A stretch of DNA of 64,000 bases from Polycladomyces abyssicola (lineage in GTDB: Bacteria > Bacillota > Bacilli > Thermoactinomycetales > JIR-001), in the NCBI RefSeq assembly GCF_018326425.1, contig NZ_AP024601.1, positions 62,001 to 126,000 of the forward strand. Direction: 5' to 3'. A program made the translations under genes and the position numbers. The notes under the pieces are model-generated. The model was not told the origin of the DNA, ran no database searches, and saw only the letters and a program-made list of their open reading frames with translations. Below, in pieces: positions 1,123 to 56,415 of the stretch. Positions within the stretch are counted from its first letter, which is position 1, and every line of letters begins with the position of its first letter.

Positions 1123-1138
1123 ACCAGATCGGTTCTAA

Positions 1139-1184
1139 GGTTTGTCTGGTCATAACGTAGGAAGTATGGATCAGTCACACCCGA
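1139..1184. repeat. Short copy of the GTGTCTGGT palindromic repeat family
   Basis: The left end TTGTCTGGTCAT and a right end ATCAGTCACACCC match the termini of longer copies elsewhere in the window with a few substitutions. Only about 20 bases separate them, so this looks like a deletion derivative. It lies between the phosphodiesterase and glycosyltransferase genes. Confidence 0.45.
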
Positions 1185-2042: not shown

Positions 2043-4388
<2,346 letters not shown>

Positions 4389-4621
4389 CTTCAGGATGGG
4401 GTGATTGGCCCTGGACTTTTTCGGGTGACCTGTTTCCCGGTTAAGCGACTGTTGGGACGTGAACGGGAGCGAGTGAGGAAAAAGCAGTCACCCGGAAGCG
4501 AATCGGTTACCGGTGGACTCTGAGAGTATATGAAGAGCCGAGACCGGGTGGCGATCGGTTCAGTGGGAGAGATTGGTTCGCCACTTGAACCATATACCAT
4601 GATGTAGCAAACCCACTACGC
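4389..4621. other. Intergenic stretch after metG with no recognised gene
   Basis: No convincing coding frame, RNA gene or strong terminator is seen here. A 69-codon frame on the minus strand (4391-4600) lacks a ribosome site and any recognisable similarity. Confidence 0.5.
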
Positions 4622-4792
4622 AGTCGTGTCTGGTCATTTGATCGTGTTTCGCAAAAAGGGTCCATTGGCTGGCACTTTCCTCTAAGCGGAGCGTACTTTT
4701 CTGCATCGTGTGCTTCCGGTTGCTTCCTTACGGGAAGAAAGTGAAATAAGCTCCGGGAAAGCGATGCGGACGAATTTGGTCAGATACGCTCT
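4622..4792 (-). repeat. Diverged copy of the palindromic repeat family, about 170 bp
   Basis: It begins with CGTGTCTGGTCATTTG (4625-4640) and ends with GGTCAGATACGCT (4778-4790), the inverted terminal sequence. Its interior contains TCTAAGCGGAGCGTACTTT, matching the core of the copy at 32878 in the same orientation. Strand is given relative to the copies at 40402 and 51568. Confidence 0.65.
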
Positions 4793-4871
4793 AGTGGGAT
4801 GAGCACCACTCATTCATCCGATTGTATAACCTGTCGCGTAATGTCCCCCTTTCAACCTACGATGGAAATAC

Positions 4872-4902
4872 CCACGGGCCCTCCCGATGGGCGCCGTGGG
4901 CT
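4872..4902 (+). terminator. Hairpin terminator upstream of lepB
   Basis: CCCACGG and CCGTGGG pair around a GC-rich inner loop and are followed by CTTTT. Confidence 0.6.
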
Positions 4903-4988
4903 TTTAGACGTCATTTACTGTAAATATGGGTGGAAAATTGGAAGGACATCCAGTATTGTAATTACAGAGAGGGGGATAAGGGTTCAAG

Positions 4989-6323: not shown

Positions 6324-6379
6324 GAGATAAGTCGGACGGTCCACACTAAGAAAACCACAAAGGGGTCTCTGATGCTATG

Positions 6380-6412
6380 ATGTGTCTGGACAGTATTCGC
6401 CAGACACGCCCC
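6380..6412. repeat. Minimal copy of the palindromic repeat family
   Basis: GTGTCTGG and CCAGACAC form a perfect eight-base inverted repeat around ACAGTATTCG. That inner sequence equals the right-end flank of the copy ending at 33034, so this is a terminal remnant, between the TatD gene and rnmV. Confidence 0.6.
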
Positions 6413-6460
6413 AGTATCCCGCGGACCATCAGGCTGTTATAGGAAAGAAGGTTACGTTGG

Positions 6461-25994: not shown

Positions 25995-26049
25995 CGGGGA
26001 GTCATGATTTCCCAGGCGGGCGACAAGAGTTAAGTTCGGCCAAGCATCG

Positions 26050-26135
26050 ATTGGGAAAGCGCAGGAACCTCATCGCGGACAATATCTTCTGAGCGAAGCG
26101 TAATTTGCCCGCGGCGTCCTCGAATCAAGAGGAAG
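26050..26135 (-). repeat. Degenerate core fragment of the palindromic repeat family
   Basis: CAGGAA, ATCGCGG, CAATATCTTCTGAGCGAAG and TTTGCCCGCGG follow in the order found in the repeat at 32878. The terminal GTGTCTGG ends are no longer clear. It lies between rqcP and yabP. Confidence 0.55.
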
Positions 26136-27452: not shown

Positions 27453-27500
27453 GGACAATCTCGTTCCGTCAGATCCGGCTTGAGGGTGCAGGTGGAGCGA

Positions 27501-27538
27501 ACCGGGAATGAATTGGACAGTCTTCACCAGACACGCTT
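27501..27538. repeat. Terminal remnant of the palindromic repeat family
   Basis: ACAGTCTTCACCAGACACGC (27517-27536) is the right terminus found in the copies at 6380 and 32878. No clear partner end is visible. Confidence 0.5.
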
Positions 27539-27588
27539 GGAAGAGCTGGGATTAACCTCAAAAGGGGATGCGAGAGGTTTCATCATCC

Positions 27589-32874: not shown

Positions 32875-32877
32875 CTA

Positions 32878-33036
32878 GGGCGTGTCTGGTCATTCCGAGC
32901 TGAAGACCCGGGAAGTACAGGAATGAAATCGCGGGCAATTTCTTCTAAGCAAAGTGACTTTGCCCGCGGTCTGCGCTTAGATCGCAGTGGCTTCCTTTCG
33001 GGTAATTAATGGGACAGTATTCACCAGACACGCCTT
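32878..33036 (-). repeat. Palindromic repeat family copy, about 158 bp
   Basis: The ends are GGGCGTGTCTGGTCATT (32878-32894) and ACCAGACACGCC (33023-33034). The core has GACCCGGGAA, CAGGAAT, ATCGCGGGCAATTTCTTCT, GCAAAG and TTTGCCCGCGG. This is the reverse orientation of the copies at 40402 and 51568. No open reading frame is carried. Confidence 0.85.
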
Positions 33037-33165
33037 GGCGTAAACTGTTCAGGTAGCCCGGAACCTGCGAGCGACCTTTGCGATTGCGGAACAGGAGCGA
33101 CCGGGAGAAAGGTGAAACCGGAGAAATCGGATTGATTAGCGAGCCCAGGAAGGGATGCAAGAAGG

Positions 33166-38208: not shown

Positions 38209-38243
38209 CCGAATCGGAATCCGAAAAGGTCGCCTTTCTCCGC

Positions 38244-38295
38244 GGGGTGTGTCTGTTCATTTCAATCACCCTTTTGGAATGACCGGATACACCCC
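38244..38295. repeat. Short copy of the palindromic repeat family
   Basis: GGGGTGTGTCTGTTCATTTC and GGAATGACCGGATACACCCC are inverted repeats matching in 16 of 20 positions with 12 bases between. They correspond to the family termini plus the CATT extension. Confidence 0.65.
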
Positions 38296-38361
38296 AGGTT
38301 TATGAGCAACGAAACAAATTGTGTGTCTTTCATATTGTCGTGTTGGAACTGGGAGGTCATC

Positions 38362-40366: not shown

Positions 40367-40401
40367 GTGGATGGACCGCCGTATTCGCTTATAGTTAGTA
40401 A

Positions 40402-40637
40402 AGTATGTCTGGTGAATACTGCCAATTCCTTTCCCTACTCGCTCCACCTGCCCCTGCAAGGAAGCAGGTCATGGACGCTCCACCCGGAGCGCAGGACGCG
40501 GGCAAAGTACGCTTCGCTTAAAAGTAGTTGCCCGAGATTGCTTTCCTGTGATTTCCAGGTCTTCGCTCGGCCGGGCTTGGTCAGTCGCTCACTCGGAAAA
40601 GCATTATCTCCTTCACGGATTTATCAGACACACCCTG
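40402..40637 (+). repeat. Palindromic repeat family copy, about 236 bp
   Basis: The ends are AGTATGTCTGGTGAATACTG (40402-40421) and TTATCAGACACACCCT (40621-40636). The core ACCCGGAGCGCAGGACG, GGGCAAAGTACGCTTCGCTT, TTGCCCGAGATT, CTTTCCTG and GGTCTTCGCTCGGCCGGGCT closely follows the copy at 51568 in the same orientation. It occupies the place of pabB, between cysK and pabA. Confidence 0.85.
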
Positions 40638-40758
40638 GTAGTAGCGGCAGTTCCAAGGCAAGGTAGCTTTTTTCCTGTTTTTCATCGCTTTTATCCGACG
40701 GGGTTTTGTTGTAAACTGATGAAGAGATCATGGGTGAAAATCCAAGGGGTTCCCGGGC

Positions 40759-45090: not shown

Positions 45091-45106
45091 TGATACGTCA
45101 ATCATA

Positions 45107-45173
45107 GTATGTGTCCGGTCATTCGCAGAATCGAGCGACCTCACCCGCAGGAAAACCGATTGCCGGACACCTC
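45107..45173. repeat. Short diverged copy of the palindromic repeat family
   Basis: GTGTCCGGTCATT (45111-45123) and ATTGCCGGACAC (45159-45170) form inverted ends. Both ends carry the same CCGG change relative to the CTGG/CCAG of other copies, suggesting compensating substitution that keeps pairing. Confidence 0.6.
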
Positions 45174-45205
45174 TGGACGAACCGAACGAAAGAGTTGGAG
45201 ACTGA

Positions 45206-49795: not shown

Positions 49796-51568
49796 ATGAG
49801 GAAGCGGCGAGTGTGGCGGGGAGTCCTCAGTTTGCTGTTGGTGTTAATGTTGATCCTGCCTGCTGGAGTGTGGGCGCAAGCGGCGGCCGGAGTGCCAAAA
49901 GCAGTTCATCACGGTTGGACCACGGATGAAGGACAGGTGGCCCATGGGAAATACGGCATGGTGGCGACTGCGCACCCCCTGGCTTCCAAGGTGGGAGCCG
50001 AGGTGCTCAAACGTGGAGGCAATGCGGTGGACGCGGCAGTAGCCATTCAATTTGTCTTGAACGTCGTTGAGCCGCAGATGTCCGGGATCGGCGGCGGCGG
50101 ATTTATGATGGTATACGATGCCAAAACGAAAAAAGTCTCCATCATCGACAGTCGCGAACGGGCACCGCAATCGGCACGGCCAGACATGTTCCTCGATGAA
50201 AATGGTCAGGAGATCCCGTTCCCGGTACGCTCCACGCAAGGCTACGCCGTCGGTGTTCCCGGCACGCTGAAAGGATTGCAGGCGGCTCTGGACAAATGGG
50301 GCACCAAACCGATGGCCGAGTTGATCCAGCCGGCGATTCTTCTGGCGGAACGCGGGGTGAAGGTAAACTGGGTACTGGCCAGAGACATTGCGGCGTGCAA
50401 GGAAAGGCTGTCCCGATCGGCGGCCAAAGACGTGTTCCTCCCGAACGGCGAGCCGCTGAAAGAAGGCGACCTCCTCGTGCAAAAAGATCTGGCCAAGACA
50501 TTCCGCTTGATCCAAGCTTTCGGACCCAACGTGTTTTATCAAGGGAAAGTCGGTCAAGCTCTCGTCCAAACGGTGAATGCGTACGGCGGACATATGACGA
50601 TGAACGATTTGAAGCGCTACCACATCACGGTGGACAAGCCGTTGGAAGCAGATTTCCACGGTTATCATGTGGTGACGATGCCGCCGCCCAGCTCTGGCGG
50701 AGTGACCATCATGTACATCCTGAAACTGCTGGAAGAGAAAAACGCTTGGCAAACCGCACTCCGCTCGCCGGAACGTTATCACCTGATGACGGAGGCGATG
50801 CATCTCGCCTATGCTGACCGCGGGGCGTACATCGGTGATCCGGAATTCGTGGATGTACCGGTACAAGGAATGTTGGATCCGCGCTATTTCAAGGAACGTG
50901 CTGCGTTGATCGATCTCAACAAGGCCAATTCCGACGTCCAACCCGGTGATCCGTGGAAATACCAGCAATCGGGCACCCCGAATCGGACGGTGAAACAGCC
51001 GGACAACAAACACATCGGACAGACCACGCATTTCACCGTGGCCGATCGTTGGGGCAATCTCGTCTCTTACACCACTACCATCGAGCAGGAGTTCGGTACG
51101 GGGATCATGGTGCCGGGCTACGGCTTTATGTTGAATAACGAAATGACCGATTTTGACGCCGTACCGGGCGGGCCCAACCAAGCGGAGCCCAACAAACGCC
51201 CGATGTCCAGCATGAGCCCGACGATTGTGTTCAAAGACGGCAAGCCGGTGATGACCGTCGGTTCACCGGGTGGTCCGACGATCATCGCGTCGGTGTTTCA
51301 AGTGTTGATGTACACACTGGTGGACGGACTGGACATCAAATCGGCGATCGAAGAGCCGCGTATCTACAGCAACAAATACCCCAAGATCCTTTGGGAGGAC
51401 GGTGTACCCGATACTGCCCGTGAACGAATGACGCAGATGGGGCATCAGTTTGAGAGCAGTCCACAAAGCATCGGCAACGTGCAGAGCATCGTGATCGACC
51501 CCGTCACGGGTGCCTATACCGGTGCGACTGACTCCTCCCGTGAGGGATGGGCGGTTGGCTTGAACTAG
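49796..51568 (+). CDS. ggt: Gamma-glutamyltransferase
   Basis: Ggt hydrolyses or transfers gamma-glutamyl groups from glutathione, glutamine or poly-gamma-glutamate outside the cell. The 590-residue precursor has a signal peptide (about 1-31), MSGIGGGGFMM, and the autoprocessing site IGQTTHFTVAD where Thr410 becomes the N-terminal nucleophile of the small subunit. MSSMSPTIV and GSPGGPTI complete the site. GGAGGG is ten bases before ATG 49796. A family repeat begins at its stop codon and lies before its terminator. Confidence 0.96.
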   Translation: MRKRRVWRGVLSLLLVLMLILPAGVWAQAAAGVPKAVHHGWTTDEGQVAHGKYGMVATAHPLASKVGAEVLKRGGNAVDAAVAIQFVLNVVEPQMSGIGGGGFMMVYDAKTKKVSIIDSRERAPQSARPDMFLDENGQEIPFPVRSTQGYAVGVPGTLKGLQAALDKWGTKPMAELIQPAILLAERGVKVNWVLARDIAACKERLSRSAAKDVFLPNGEPLKEGDLLVQKDLAKTFRLIQAFGPNVFYQGKVGQALVQTVNAYGGHMTMNDLKRYHITVDKPLEADFHGYHVVTMPPPSSGGVTIMYILKLLEEKNAWQTALRSPERYHLMTEAMHLAYADRGAYIGDPEFVDVPVQGMLDPRYFKERAALIDLNKANSDVQPGDPWKYQQSGTPNRTVKQPDNKHIGQTTHFTVADRWGNLVSYTTTIEQEFGTGIMVPGYGFMLNNEMTDFDAVPGGPNQAEPNKRPMSSMSPTIVFKDGKPVMTVGSPGGPTIIASVFQVLMYTLVDGLDIKSAIEEPRIYSNKYPKILWEDGVPDTARERMTQMGHQFESSPQSIGNVQSIVIDPVTGAYTGATDSSREGWAVGLN

Positions 51569-51785
51569 GGCGTGTCTGGTAACTTGCGTTTTTCGGTCAC
51601 GCTCCACCAGCGTTCTACAAGGAGCGAACAACTCCGACCCGGAGAGCAGGACGGGGGCAAAGTAGGCTTCGCTTATAGGAAATTGCCCGCGATTCCATTC
51701 CTGCGCTTTCCGGGTCTTCCATCGGTCGGGCTTGGTCAGTCGCTCACCTGGGAAAAGACCGCATGGAAATGACCAGACATCCCCT
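51568..51785 (+). repeat. Palindromic repeat family copy, about 218 bp
   Basis: GGGCGTGTCTGGTAACTTG starts at the last base of the ggt stop codon; the other end is ATGACCAGACATCCCCT (51769-51785). The interior pairs with itself: GACCCGGA with TCCGGGTC, CAGGA with TCCTG, GGGCAA with TTGCCC, around GGCTTCGCTTATAGG. The element can therefore fold into one long hairpin. Confidence 0.88.
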
Positions 51786-51842
51786 GGGAGTTGTCCGGTA
51801 ACATGGCTCAACACGATTCTGCTGTTTCAAACGGTGCCAACC

Positions 51843-53303: not shown

Positions 53304-54848
53304 TTGAGTGAAGAAGTGATTGTCGGGATCGATCTGGGGACGACGTTTTCCGCCATCGCCTACGTCAACGCATACGGGAAGCCGGAGGTGATTCCCAACC
53401 GCGAAGGAGATCGGACCACCCCGTCTGTCATCTTTTTCGAGCCGGACAGTACTCCGATTGTAGGCAAGGAAGCGCGCCACCAAGCTTTGGTGGACCCGCG
53501 CCGGGCGGTTCGTTTCATCAAACGGGAGATGGGGAACCCCTCGTATCGTTTTAATGTGAACGGTCAGGACTATTTTCCCGAGGATCTCTCCGCATTGATC
53601 CTGAAAAAACTGAAGGCGGACGCGGAAACTTACTTGGGCAAGCCGGTGAATAAAGCCGTCATCAGCGTGCCGGCCTACTTCAAGGACGCTCAGCGGGAAT
53701 GCACCCGGCAAGCGGGAAAAATCGCCGGACTCGATGTGATCCGCATCATCAACGAGCCGACTGCGGCCGCACTCGCTTACGGATTGGACAAGGCTGAGGG
53801 CAACCAGACCATTTTGGTGTACGATTTCGGCGGCGGGACGTTTGATGTGACGGTGATGCGCGTGGAGGGGCAACGGTTCACCATCCTGGCCACTGACGGG
53901 GATTCCCACCTGGGCGGTAAGGATATCGACGAGCGGCTGGTCGATTACTTCGCCGAGGAATTCATGCGGGCCTACTGGATGGATCTCCGCCAGGAACCGC
54001 ACACCTTGCAGGATTTGTGGGACAAGGCGGAGATCGCCAAAAAGGATCTCTCCTTCCGCAATCAATTGGCCGTCACGTTGGCCACCGGGGATAAAGCGTT
54101 GCGGGTGGACATCGACCGGGAGCTGTTTGACGAGTTGACCCACGATCTGATCGCCCGGACGGAAGCCTGCATGCAACGGGTGATCCAGTCGGCTGGTTTG
54201 ACGTGGGACCGGATTGACACGATTCTGCTCGCCGGAGGTTCCAGCCGGATTCCCGCCGTGAAGGAGATGATCAAGCGCGTCACCGGCAAGGATGCGGCAC
54301 GCAACATGAACCCGGACGAATGCGTGGCGATGGGCGCGGCGATCCAGGCAGTCGTCTCTATGATGGAAAAAGGGGAGCAGGAATCCGCGCCACCGCTGGA
54401 AGGGGCCGTCGACATCGTCGTCCAGGACGTGGCCTCCCACAGTTTGGGCGTCAAGGCGCTGTCTTCGGACAAGACGCGTTATGTCAACAGCATCATCATT
54501 CCCAAGCACACGCCGATTCCCTGCGAACGGACCCGTACTTACGTCACCGGTGAGGACAACCAACCGCGAGTGGAGATCGAGGTGCTGCAGGGAGAGGACG
54601 AAGATCCCAACTCCCCCAACGTACAGCTGATCGGAAAAGCGGGCTTGCGCAACCTGCCGCCTCATAAGGCCGGGGAGCTGATGATCGAGATAACGCTCCG
54701 CTATGACGCCGACGGCGTGATCGAAGTGGTGGCCAAAGAACTGAAGAGCGGGCAGAAGACGCGCGAAGTCGTCATGCAGAAAACGAACAGCCTGTCCGAA
54801 GACGTGTTGGAAGAACGGAAACGACTGCTGGATTCAGTCAGGTTGTAA
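53304..54848 (+). CDS. Hsp70-family protein lacking the lid domain (first paralogue)
   Basis: An Hsp70 ATPase of 514 residues against about 610 for DnaK. The nucleotide-binding domain is complete: VGIDLGTTFSAIAYV (7-21), VYDFGGGTFDVTV (about 172-184) and LLAGGSSRIPAV (about 308-319). The linker reads VVQDVASHSLGV, and a substrate-binding beta domain follows, but the protein ends where the helical lid should begin. ATPase activity is likely; substrate dwell time should be short without a lid. TTG 53304 follows AAAGGAG. It is distinct from housekeeping DnaK and is paired with a close paralogue. Confidence 0.85.
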   Translation: MSEEVIVGIDLGTTFSAIAYVNAYGKPEVIPNREGDRTTPSVIFFEPDSTPIVGKEARHQALVDPRRAVRFIKREMGNPSYRFNVNGQDYFPEDLSALILKKLKADAETYLGKPVNKAVISVPAYFKDAQRECTRQAGKIAGLDVIRIINEPTAAALAYGLDKAEGNQTILVYDFGGGTFDVTVMRVEGQRFTILATDGDSHLGGKDIDERLVDYFAEEFMRAYWMDLRQEPHTLQDLWDKAEIAKKDLSFRNQLAVTLATGDKALRVDIDRELFDELTHDLIARTEACMQRVIQSAGLTWDRIDTILLAGGSSRIPAVKEMIKRVTGKDAARNMNPDECVAMGAAIQAVVSMMEKGEQESAPPLEGAVDIVVQDVASHSLGVKALSSDKTRYVNSIIIPKHTPIPCERTRTYVTGEDNQPRVEIEVLQGEDEDPNSPNVQLIGKAGLRNLPPHKAGELMIEITLRYDADGVIEVVAKELKSGQKTREVVMQKTNSLSEDVLEERKRLLDSVRL

Positions 54849-54891: not shown

Positions 54892-56415
54892 ATGAGCAAG
54901 GTTGTGGGCATTGATCTCGGCACGACCAACTCGGCGATCGCCGTCGTCAACCCTTACGGGAAGCCGGAGATTCTGGTCAACCGCGAGGGGGAACGTATCA
55001 CCCCCTCCGTCGTGTTGTTTGAGGGAAACGAGCCGATCGTCGGCAGCATCGCCAAGCGGTCGGCGGTGATGTCGCCGCTCAACGTCGTGCAGTTTGCCAA
55101 ACGGCAGATGGGCGTGAAATCCTGGAAATTCCGCACGGAAACCGGAGAGATTTACAACGCGGAGGACATCTCCGCCATCATTTTGAAACGGCTCAAGGAA
55201 GATGCGGAAATGCTTTTGGGCGAGGAGATCCGGGATGCCGTTATCACCGTTCCCGCCTATTTCGATGACGCGCAGCGAAAAGCAACGTTGGACGCCGGAC
55301 GGATCGCGGGGCTCAATGTGTTGCGCATCATCAACGAGCCGACGGCGGCCGCCCTCGCCTACGGGTTGAACAAGGTGGGAGAGGAGCAGACCATCCTCGT
55401 CTATGACCTGGGCGGCGGCACGTTTGACGTTACCATCATGCGGCTGAACGGAGAGCGCATCGAGGTGGTCGCCACCGGCGGGGCAAAAAACCTGGGCGGC
55501 TTCGACTGGGACAACGAGATTATGAAATATCTGAATGAGGAGTTTCAAAAACAAGGCGGCCCCAATCTGTTTGACGACCCGGTGATGGAACAGGATCTGC
55601 GTGACAAAGCGGAGATGGCCAAGCGTACCCTTTCCTCGCGTGAAAAGACCAGCGTCTTTCTATCCGCAGGCGGAGTGACCGCCTCCATCACGCTGACGCG
55701 TGAAACGTTTGAGACGATCACGCGCCATCTGTTGCGTCAGACGCAGAGTATCATGGAGTTTGTGCTGGAAGACGCGGGTATGCAGTGGAAGGATATCGAC
55801 AAGATCCTGCTCGTCGGCGGATCCACCCGCATGAAGGCCGTTCCGGCCATGATCGAGCGCGTGACGGGGATCAAACCGTCAATGGATGTCAACCCGGATG
55901 AAGTGGTGGCGATGGGGGCGGCCATTCAGGGTACGTTGATCCAGGTGCAACAGGGTACGGCCCAATTGCACGAAGCGGCGGATTTCCCGATCGTGGAGGT
56001 GCAGGATGTCAACTCCCACAGTTTGGGTGTCGTTGCCTTGGACGAGAACGACCGGGAAATCAACTCGATCGTGTTGAAAAAGGATACCCCCATCCCGTGC
56101 AAGGTGAGCGGTCGCTACGTCACCAGCGTGGACAACCAGACCCAGCTTCATGTGCAGGTGACGGAAGGAGAGGACACCGATCTAAACTACGTGAAGATCG
56201 TGGGCGAAGGCGTGATGGACCTGCCGCCGCGTCCGAAAGGATCGCCGTTGGAAGTGATCTTCGAGTATGACCGCGACGGGATCATCCACGTCTCCGTCGT
56301 CGATTTGACCTCCGGCCAGCGGTTGGGGGAGCTGAAGATCGAACGTGTCTCCAACCTGACCGAAGAAGAAGTGGCGGAAAAACAACAACGCCTCGGCAAA
56401 CTGGCCATCGGCTGA
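54892..56415 (+). CDS. Hsp70-family protein lacking the lid domain (second paralogue)
   Basis: A 507-residue Hsp70 with VGIDLGTTNSAIAVV (5-19), VYDLGGGTFDVTIM (about 169-182), LLVGGSTRMKAV (about 306-317) and linker VQDVNSHSLGV. Like its neighbour it stops after the beta substrate-binding domain (LEVIFEYDRDGIIHVSV) with only a short helical tail (EEEVAEKQQRLGKLA). The two look like an old tandem duplication. Two different Hsp70s with one GrpE-like and one J-like partner suggest a heteromeric or sequential machine, which is inference. Confidence 0.85.
   Translation: MSKVVGIDLGTTNSAIAVVNPYGKPEILVNREGERITPSVVLFEGNEPIVGSIAKRSAVMSPLNVVQFAKRQMGVKSWKFRTETGEIYNAEDISAIILKRLKEDAEMLLGEEIRDAVITVPAYFDDAQRKATLDAGRIAGLNVLRIINEPTAAALAYGLNKVGEEQTILVYDLGGGTFDVTIMRLNGERIEVVATGGAKNLGGFDWDNEIMKYLNEEFQKQGGPNLFDDPVMEQDLRDKAEMAKRTLSSREKTSVFLSAGGVTASITLTRETFETITRHLLRQTQSIMEFVLEDAGMQWKDIDKILLVGGSTRMKAVPAMIERVTGIKPSMDVNPDEVVAMGAAIQGTLIQVQQGTAQLHEAADFPIVEVQDVNSHSLGVVALDENDREINSIVLKKDTPIPCKVSGRYVTSVDNQTQLHVQVTEGEDTDLNYVKIVGEGVMDLPPRPKGSPLEVIFEYDRDGIIHVSVVDLTSGQRLGELKIERVSNLTEEEVAEKQQRLGKLAIG

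Follow-up and report, generated by a model that had tools for sequence, protein, structure and literature searches.

In Polycladomyces abyssicola, a gamma-glutamyltranspeptidase open reading frame upstream of one copy of a dispersed palindromic repeat takes its TAG stop codon from that copy's left CTAG, which raises the question of what kind of sequence the repeat is and how it came to occupy that position. P. abyssicola JIR-001 is a thermophilic, filamentous bacterium originating from deep-sea sediment (PMC8210696), and the announcement of its genome leaves the present repeats unmentioned (PMC8210696). The genome, here labeled G000, is a single contig of 3,197,230 bp; the window referred to below is the whole 64,000 nucleotide stretch that was analysed, G000:C1:62001-126000. 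G+C content is 53.1% in the stretch analysed, compared with the 52.0% published for the chromosome (PMC8210696). Comparisons were made with two congeners, G001 and G002, of which G002 is the nearer to G000 (93.4% vs 90.8%), and with other genomes of the order, including those of three other genera (G010, G016, G033); G010 and G030 belong to genus g9.

An original prediction had counted about eleven loci of one repeat family in the window, in both orientations and with common ends. The family is confirmed (Table 1). Six are matches to a sequence profile (4663-4787, 25996-26119, 27480-27534, 32893-33031, 40406-40631, 51572-51779), distributed over the + and - strands as predicted, and five (near 1139, 2356, 6380, 38244 and 45107) fall below the profile threshold and are end-only relics, four of them supported by end matches and the 45107 locus by congener alignment alone. 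The common ends hold generally, except that the copy near 26050 has no recognisable end and the one near 27501 has only one. Because their orthologues are longer in G002 (and, at 45107, also in G001), the short copies near 6380 and 45107 can be attributed to internal deletion.

Table 1. Copies of the repeat in the window, in window coordinates; E denotes the E-value of the profile match.
Feature	Coordinates	Strand	Description
Short copy	1135..1182		Ends only
Short copy	2353..2386		Ends only; G001 and G002 both have related sequence in the corresponding position
Medium copy	4622..4795	-	Nested in another dispersed repeat (4561-4924); E=9e-14; insert absent from 14 of 16 related loci
Short copy	6374..6414		Ends only; G002 orthologue ~97 bp longer
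Core fragment	25996..26119	-	Ends lost; E=1.4e-22
One-end fragment	27480..27542	-	E=4.8e-9
Medium copy	32875..33038	-	Both ends; E=1.4e-26; shorter than consensus
Short copy	38241..38298		Ends only; common to G002
Long copy	40397..40638	+	Near consensus; E=1.5e-66; common to G002 at orthologous site, 93.3% identical
Short copy	45106..45176		Ends only; orthologues longer by ~72 bp (G002) and ~98 bp (G001)
Long copy	51565..51787	+	223 bp including flanking CTAG/CTGG; both ends; E=1.7e-49; empty CTAG in G002

The proposed whole-genome search for further copies yields many more across the chromosome. The end 16-mer CTAGGGCGTGTCTGGT, allowing up to three mismatches, has 8 matches in the window, where 0.22 would be expected (100 shuffles gave at most 2), and 126 genome-wide (68 + 58) as opposed to 35 (16 + 19) in the reversed control. 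The profile was seeded from the 40402 copy, so that it is partly built from copies that it later found; at E<1e-3 it identifies 12 matches in a contiguous 196 kb of G000 (G000:C1:42001-238000, in which 5000 bases are N and any copies there go uncounted). In the congeners it identifies 9 (G001, 97 kb) and 15 (G002, 189 kb), some of these matches being pieces of a single copy. None of the reversed sequences gives a match at the same threshold. This density, about 1 per 16 kb in the stretch studied, suggests by simple proportion that detectable copies number somewhat fewer than 200 genome-wide, if the 196-kb stretch is typical. A core 23-mer (up to three mismatches) is found 34 times in G000 (1 in the control), 49 times in G002 and 56 times in G001, with no match in 39 other genomes of the order. 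A DNA search of G000 gave at least 40 matches (40 of 89 candidates were scored and all matched). Of 41 genomes covered by a further DNA search, 3, all from one genus, contain the family, and a 36-nt core pattern found nothing in a contig collection from which close relatives may be missing.

Among 89 distinct copies, 60 lack one or both ends, leaving 29 for a full-length alignment. These two-ended copies are non-coding and span 200-251 bp, within the size expected of bacterial miniature inverted-repeat transposable elements (MITEs; less than about 500 bp). Their consensus is 244 nt including CTAG on each side and starts CTAGGGCGTGTCTGGTGAAT; its ends, CTAGnGCGTGTCTGGT...ACCAGACACGCCCTAG, are terminal inverted repeats of about 17 bp, the left reading GGGCGTGTCTGGTGAAT and the right the same save for the fourteenth base. 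Within the alignment, 79.6% of cells in the outermost inverted helix are paired.

Comparison with congeners gives evidence of insertion. The orthologous region corresponding to the 51568 copy is free of the element in G002 and reads GAACTAGGAG, with an unbroken CTAG, where the window has GAACTAG[...]CTGGGAG. The search for element-free orthologues that had been proposed came out in favour of insertion with this one, the only clean orthologous empty site in the stretches compared. Among the loci related to the sequence around the 4622 insertion point, the uninterrupted ones include one (L086) that carries CTAG there; of the two not counted as uninterrupted, one is the G002 orthologue, which holds the insert, and the other is truncated at a contig end. 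A candidate second insertion, at G000:C1 ~205345, aligns to a CTAA site in G002, and its right end is heavily decayed.

Flanking sequences across the family point to the same target. CTAG is the commonest flank, at 11 of 50 left ends and 15 of 59 right ends, and is found on both sides in one of the 29 two-ended copies (L106), the flanks having mostly decayed. Changes to the outer base (TTAG, 6 on the left; CTAA, 6 on the right) are more common than changes to the inner base (CTAA, 2 on the left; TTAG absent from the 12 commonest right flanks), and changes within the TA itself (CTGG, CCAG; 11 each side) are as frequent as those of the outer base. The difference between outer and inner positions would suit duplication of TA at YTAR targets. 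YTAR is the target of IS5 itself (PMC10359306), and the IS427 elements tabulated in PMC3281130 have mostly 2-bp target repeats. The putative duplication may be of TA or of CTAG, the two being indistinguishable at CTAG sites.

The history of the 51568 site may be less simple than a single insertion. Its CTAG holds an element in G000 and in G001 and none in G002, even though G002 is closer to G000. Identity between the G000 and G001 elements is 66.4%, whereas the flank next to them reaches 76.2%; of the 28 other full-length copies, 26 are closer to the G000 element. Either an independent insertion or a precise loss could account for this pattern.

The consensus folds end to end as one hairpin, with predicted energies of -123.7 and -130.5 kcal/mol for its two strands, far beyond shuffled sequences (z = -8.0 and -9.1). 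Taken together with copies that occupy the same place in congeners, this could mean that the repeats are functional structured RNAs, i.e. sRNA- or riboswitch-like genes at syntenic sites, an outcome that would have spoken against mobile insertions. Individual copies, however, fold much less well than the consensus (median z -2.9, range -6.2 to 0.1, n=29), and the presence of a copy at a given site varies between congeners. At the gathering score, Rfam recognises only two tRNAs in the whole window, and a permissive Rfam search of 4 copy loci returned two weak sub-gathering matches, both outside the copies.

In the 29-copy alignment, 82.7% of cells can pair; exchanging partners at random between copies gives 81.9 +/- 0.3%, and 3 of 500 such shuffles reach the observed value. 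Cells in which both partners have changed number 45 rather than the 29.3 +/- 4.7 of the shuffles, and the covariation score is 0.119 rather than 0.106 +/- 0.004 (0 of 500 as high in either case). This excess is a weak signal that falls short of establishing constraint, because kinship of the copies can yield covariation without structure; slight as it is, it leaves room for some structural constraint. RNAalifold keeps 14 pairs, 5 of them with any compensatory change, and gives a covariation term of +0.21. Conserved syntenic RNA genes were thus not seen, whether judged by Rfam, by variable presence or by pairing, and we regard functional RNA as very unlikely. Since pairing barely rises above independence, the hairpin looks like an inheritance from a transposon that has mostly been left to decay.

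The repeats had also been described as non-coding and as lying between genes, often between a stop codon and a terminator. Avoidance of reading frames agrees with the former: 11 of 85 copies (4 copies were omitted from this test) lie wholly within an ORF of at least 200 aa, as opposed to 516 of 735 random placements. As to the latter, the 51568 copy starts at a stop codon, and terminator-like hairpins can be picked out by eye downstream of that copy and upstream of the 40402 copy. A related reading accepts an origin as MITEs and holds that many copies now serve the host as terminators or as 3' mRNA-stabilising hairpins, roles that have been discussed for other bacterial repeats in a review (PMC10969869) and in a study of pneumococcus (PMC3049150). 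The strong intergenic bias is in keeping with this, as is the start of the 51568 copy at a stop codon. Against it, selection against gene disruption alone explains the intergenic bias, pairing is little over independence, and a terminator pattern scan detected no terminator-like site at either the 51568 or the 40402 copy. Such recruitment of many copies by the host strikes us as rather unlikely.

A search for insertion sequences (ISs) with the same ends, another of the proposed checks, found them in the congeners and in other genera. IS5-family (IS427-like) elements with matching ends are present in G002, in G001 (as contig-end pieces only) and in three other genera (one of them shortened). 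The G002 element has two ORFs, which encode DUF4096 and DDE_Tnp_1 domains, and is classified as IS5_3 by NCBIfam; its ends, CTAGGGCGTGTCTGGTAATT...AATTATTAGACACGCCCTAG, match those of the repeat over 16 nt on the left and 13 nt on the right, CTAG included. The G010 element is 938 bp long, and both of its ends match 19 of 19 nt of the left end of the repeat; G033 has a similar IS with matching ends. With up to one mismatch allowed, this 19-nt end can be found in 13 of 42 genomes from the order, including 39 matches in G030 and 10 in G010. We also observed in G016:C24 (L171 ~1388-1793) an IS427-like element that has matching ends and is cut down to ~400 bp, and that may stand midway between an IS and a MITE.

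Five G001 contigs carry the 19-nt IS end at a terminus, four at their start and one at its end; four of these five are exact and one has a mismatch. One of these contigs opens with a transposase C-terminus, VYFHAAITLVSLILWIND, followed by the IS-end repeat, and another starts within DUF4096 coding sequence. These contig ends appear to represent a multicopy IS in a broken assembly, of which G001 appears to keep several copies; its full-length copies would be expected to carry TAGGGCGTGTCTGGTGAAT at both ends, at the points where contigs now break.

The genome of P. abyssicola itself has no match to NF033580 or to PF13340, and the G002 IS with its flanks, used as a DNA query, finds no match there. 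PF01609 matches occur at two places in G000, neither of which bears the MITE ends, so that no parent IS is to be seen at those places. A different DUF4096 element in G002 (C31, L103) was likewise rejected as parent, its ends being different. Given the lack of a transposase-family match in G000, its copies are probably stranded and decaying.

Transposase relatives at 17 named loci are all from outside the Firmicutes, in a collection that may omit close relatives; three of them, all actinobacterial (Lentzea, Saccharothrix, Nocardia), have TAGGGCGTGTCCGCC at both ends. No IS seen would yield the interior of the repeat by simple deletion, although about 35 subterminal bases match at 80-86%. The link drawn from the ends stands despite this unrelated interior, because MITEs without a transposase remnant have been described: BrickBuilt has none inside it (PMC4596501).

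Many dispersed intergenic palindromes are also what would be expected of REP- or BIME-like elements moved by a Y1/HUH transposase (RAYT). The present element, at ~240 bp and with a TA/CTAG target, has ends that match DDE-type IS5-family elements, whereas REPs measure 20-40 bp (PMC3733652); we find a RAYT-type origin scarcely credible.

We conclude with high confidence that the repeats are a MITE family of the IS5 family, of IS427-like type, and ordinary in kind, a reading that draws directly on the ends that the copies have in common, their target preference, the empty sites, the bias towards intergenic positions and, at two loci, loss of internal sequence. The suggestion that they are non-autonomous elements using a transposase with TA or CTAG targets gains support from the copies, the matching ISs and the empty CTAG. 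The IS427 group label is a probable one, drawn from the two-ORF layout and the domains, and movement by a transposase supplied in trans is likewise deduced from sequence. In the proposed mechanism, a full copy (~240 bp, non-coding, nearly palindromic, with ~17-bp terminal inverted repeats) would be bound at its ends by the DDE transposase of a full-length IS with matching repeats, which would excise it and integrate it into YTAR targets (CTAG in most cases) with duplication of TA or CTAG. The long hairpin would be a feature of the transposon itself and have no function at individual sites. The three species would then form a series in which a MITE persists without a detected transposase of its own family while sister genomes still hold such an IS. 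This interpretation also accounts for a repeat that, without it, could be taken for RNA genes or terminators.

MITEs whose ends are of the IS5 family (PMC4596501) and high-copy MITEs beside their parental IS (PMC9769881) have already been described in bacteria. The literature on MITEs and on Polycladomyces or Thermoactinomycetaceae genomes, searched mostly outside subscription journals, gave no title or abstract opening describing the present family. In Paracoccus, many IS427-group elements have two overlapping ORFs with a frameshift motif and inverted repeats of 13-21 bp (PMC3281130, in part). The G002 element resembles that group in being an IS5_3 element with two ORFs, and the ends of the G002 and G010 elements match the window repeat; the repeat differs from the group in being ~240 bp, non-coding and nearly palindromic, and the G002 and G010 ISs are ~940-960 bp compared with 832-865 bp for the Paracoccus elements shown (PMC3281130). 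BrickBuilt, MITE239 and related MITEs of Porphyromonas gingivalis similarly have terminal repeats that match IS5-family elements, but with another end sequence, and BrickBuilt has a minisatellite, of which none was seen in the window consensus (PMC4596501, in part). MITECca01 of Cardinium cOegib is, like the present family, high-copy (169) and mostly intergenic, with inverted repeats common to its parental IS; unlike it, the parent belongs to the IS982 family and is intact in the same genome, whereas the parent family was not found in G000 (PMC9769881, in part).

Folded intergenic repeats are also found in Streptococcus pneumoniae, as BOX, RUP and SPRITE. RUP is linked to IS630. All three show past proliferation and MITE features (125, 110 and 30 elements, respectively), and the source claims no shared ends for them (PMC3049150, in part).

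Genus g9 contains a second MITE, ~131 bp plus TA, with similar ends CTAGGGCGTGTCTGATGAAT and CTAGGGTGTGTCTGGCAAAT. At least 20 copies are present in each of its two genomes (20 of 20 candidates scored matched), identical to the G030 query at 93-98% for other G030 copies and at 85-95% in G010. We examined 27 of 40 matches, of which 5 had no recognised end pair and 1 was a duplicate, leaving 21 distinct two-ended copies; 12 of these are flanked CTA...TAG, though the pairs L209/L214 and L216/L225 are not independent because their flanks are common across species. Homology between the two MITE interiors was rejected (local score 19 vs 18.4 +/- 3.1 for shuffled sequences, 398 of 1000 as high). On this reading, one IS type would have given rise to at least two MITE families in the order.

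A bolder extension is that one IS427-like lineage in this order repeatedly spawns palindromic MITEs with unrelated interiors, the present family in Polycladomyces and one of younger appearance in g9, the full-length hairpin being favoured because it aids transposition, or exact excision, at CTAG stop-codon sites that can be used again. We consider this doubtful; if true, the 51568 site would, in the course of the genus's history, have received an element on two occasions, or received one and then lost it precisely. The g9 copies (L190 ~690-830; L199-L228) are less diverged than those of the window, up to 98% identical to the query, and offer a better system for tests of mobility than the decayed window copies. 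With them, the birth, spread and stranding of MITEs become testable within one bacterial order.

Two further repeats in the window deserve mention. The dispersed repeat at 4561-4924 hosts the 4622 copy; apart from the G002 orthologue, its left part matches 15 loci in the two congeners, several of them at G002 contig ends, and the repeat may be the terminal part of another insertion sequence. Two neighbouring ORFs (53304-54848, 514 aa, and 54892-56415, 507 aa) have repeated DNA in common (122 nt, 74%); the product of the former is an HSP70-family protein, shorter than standard DnaK.
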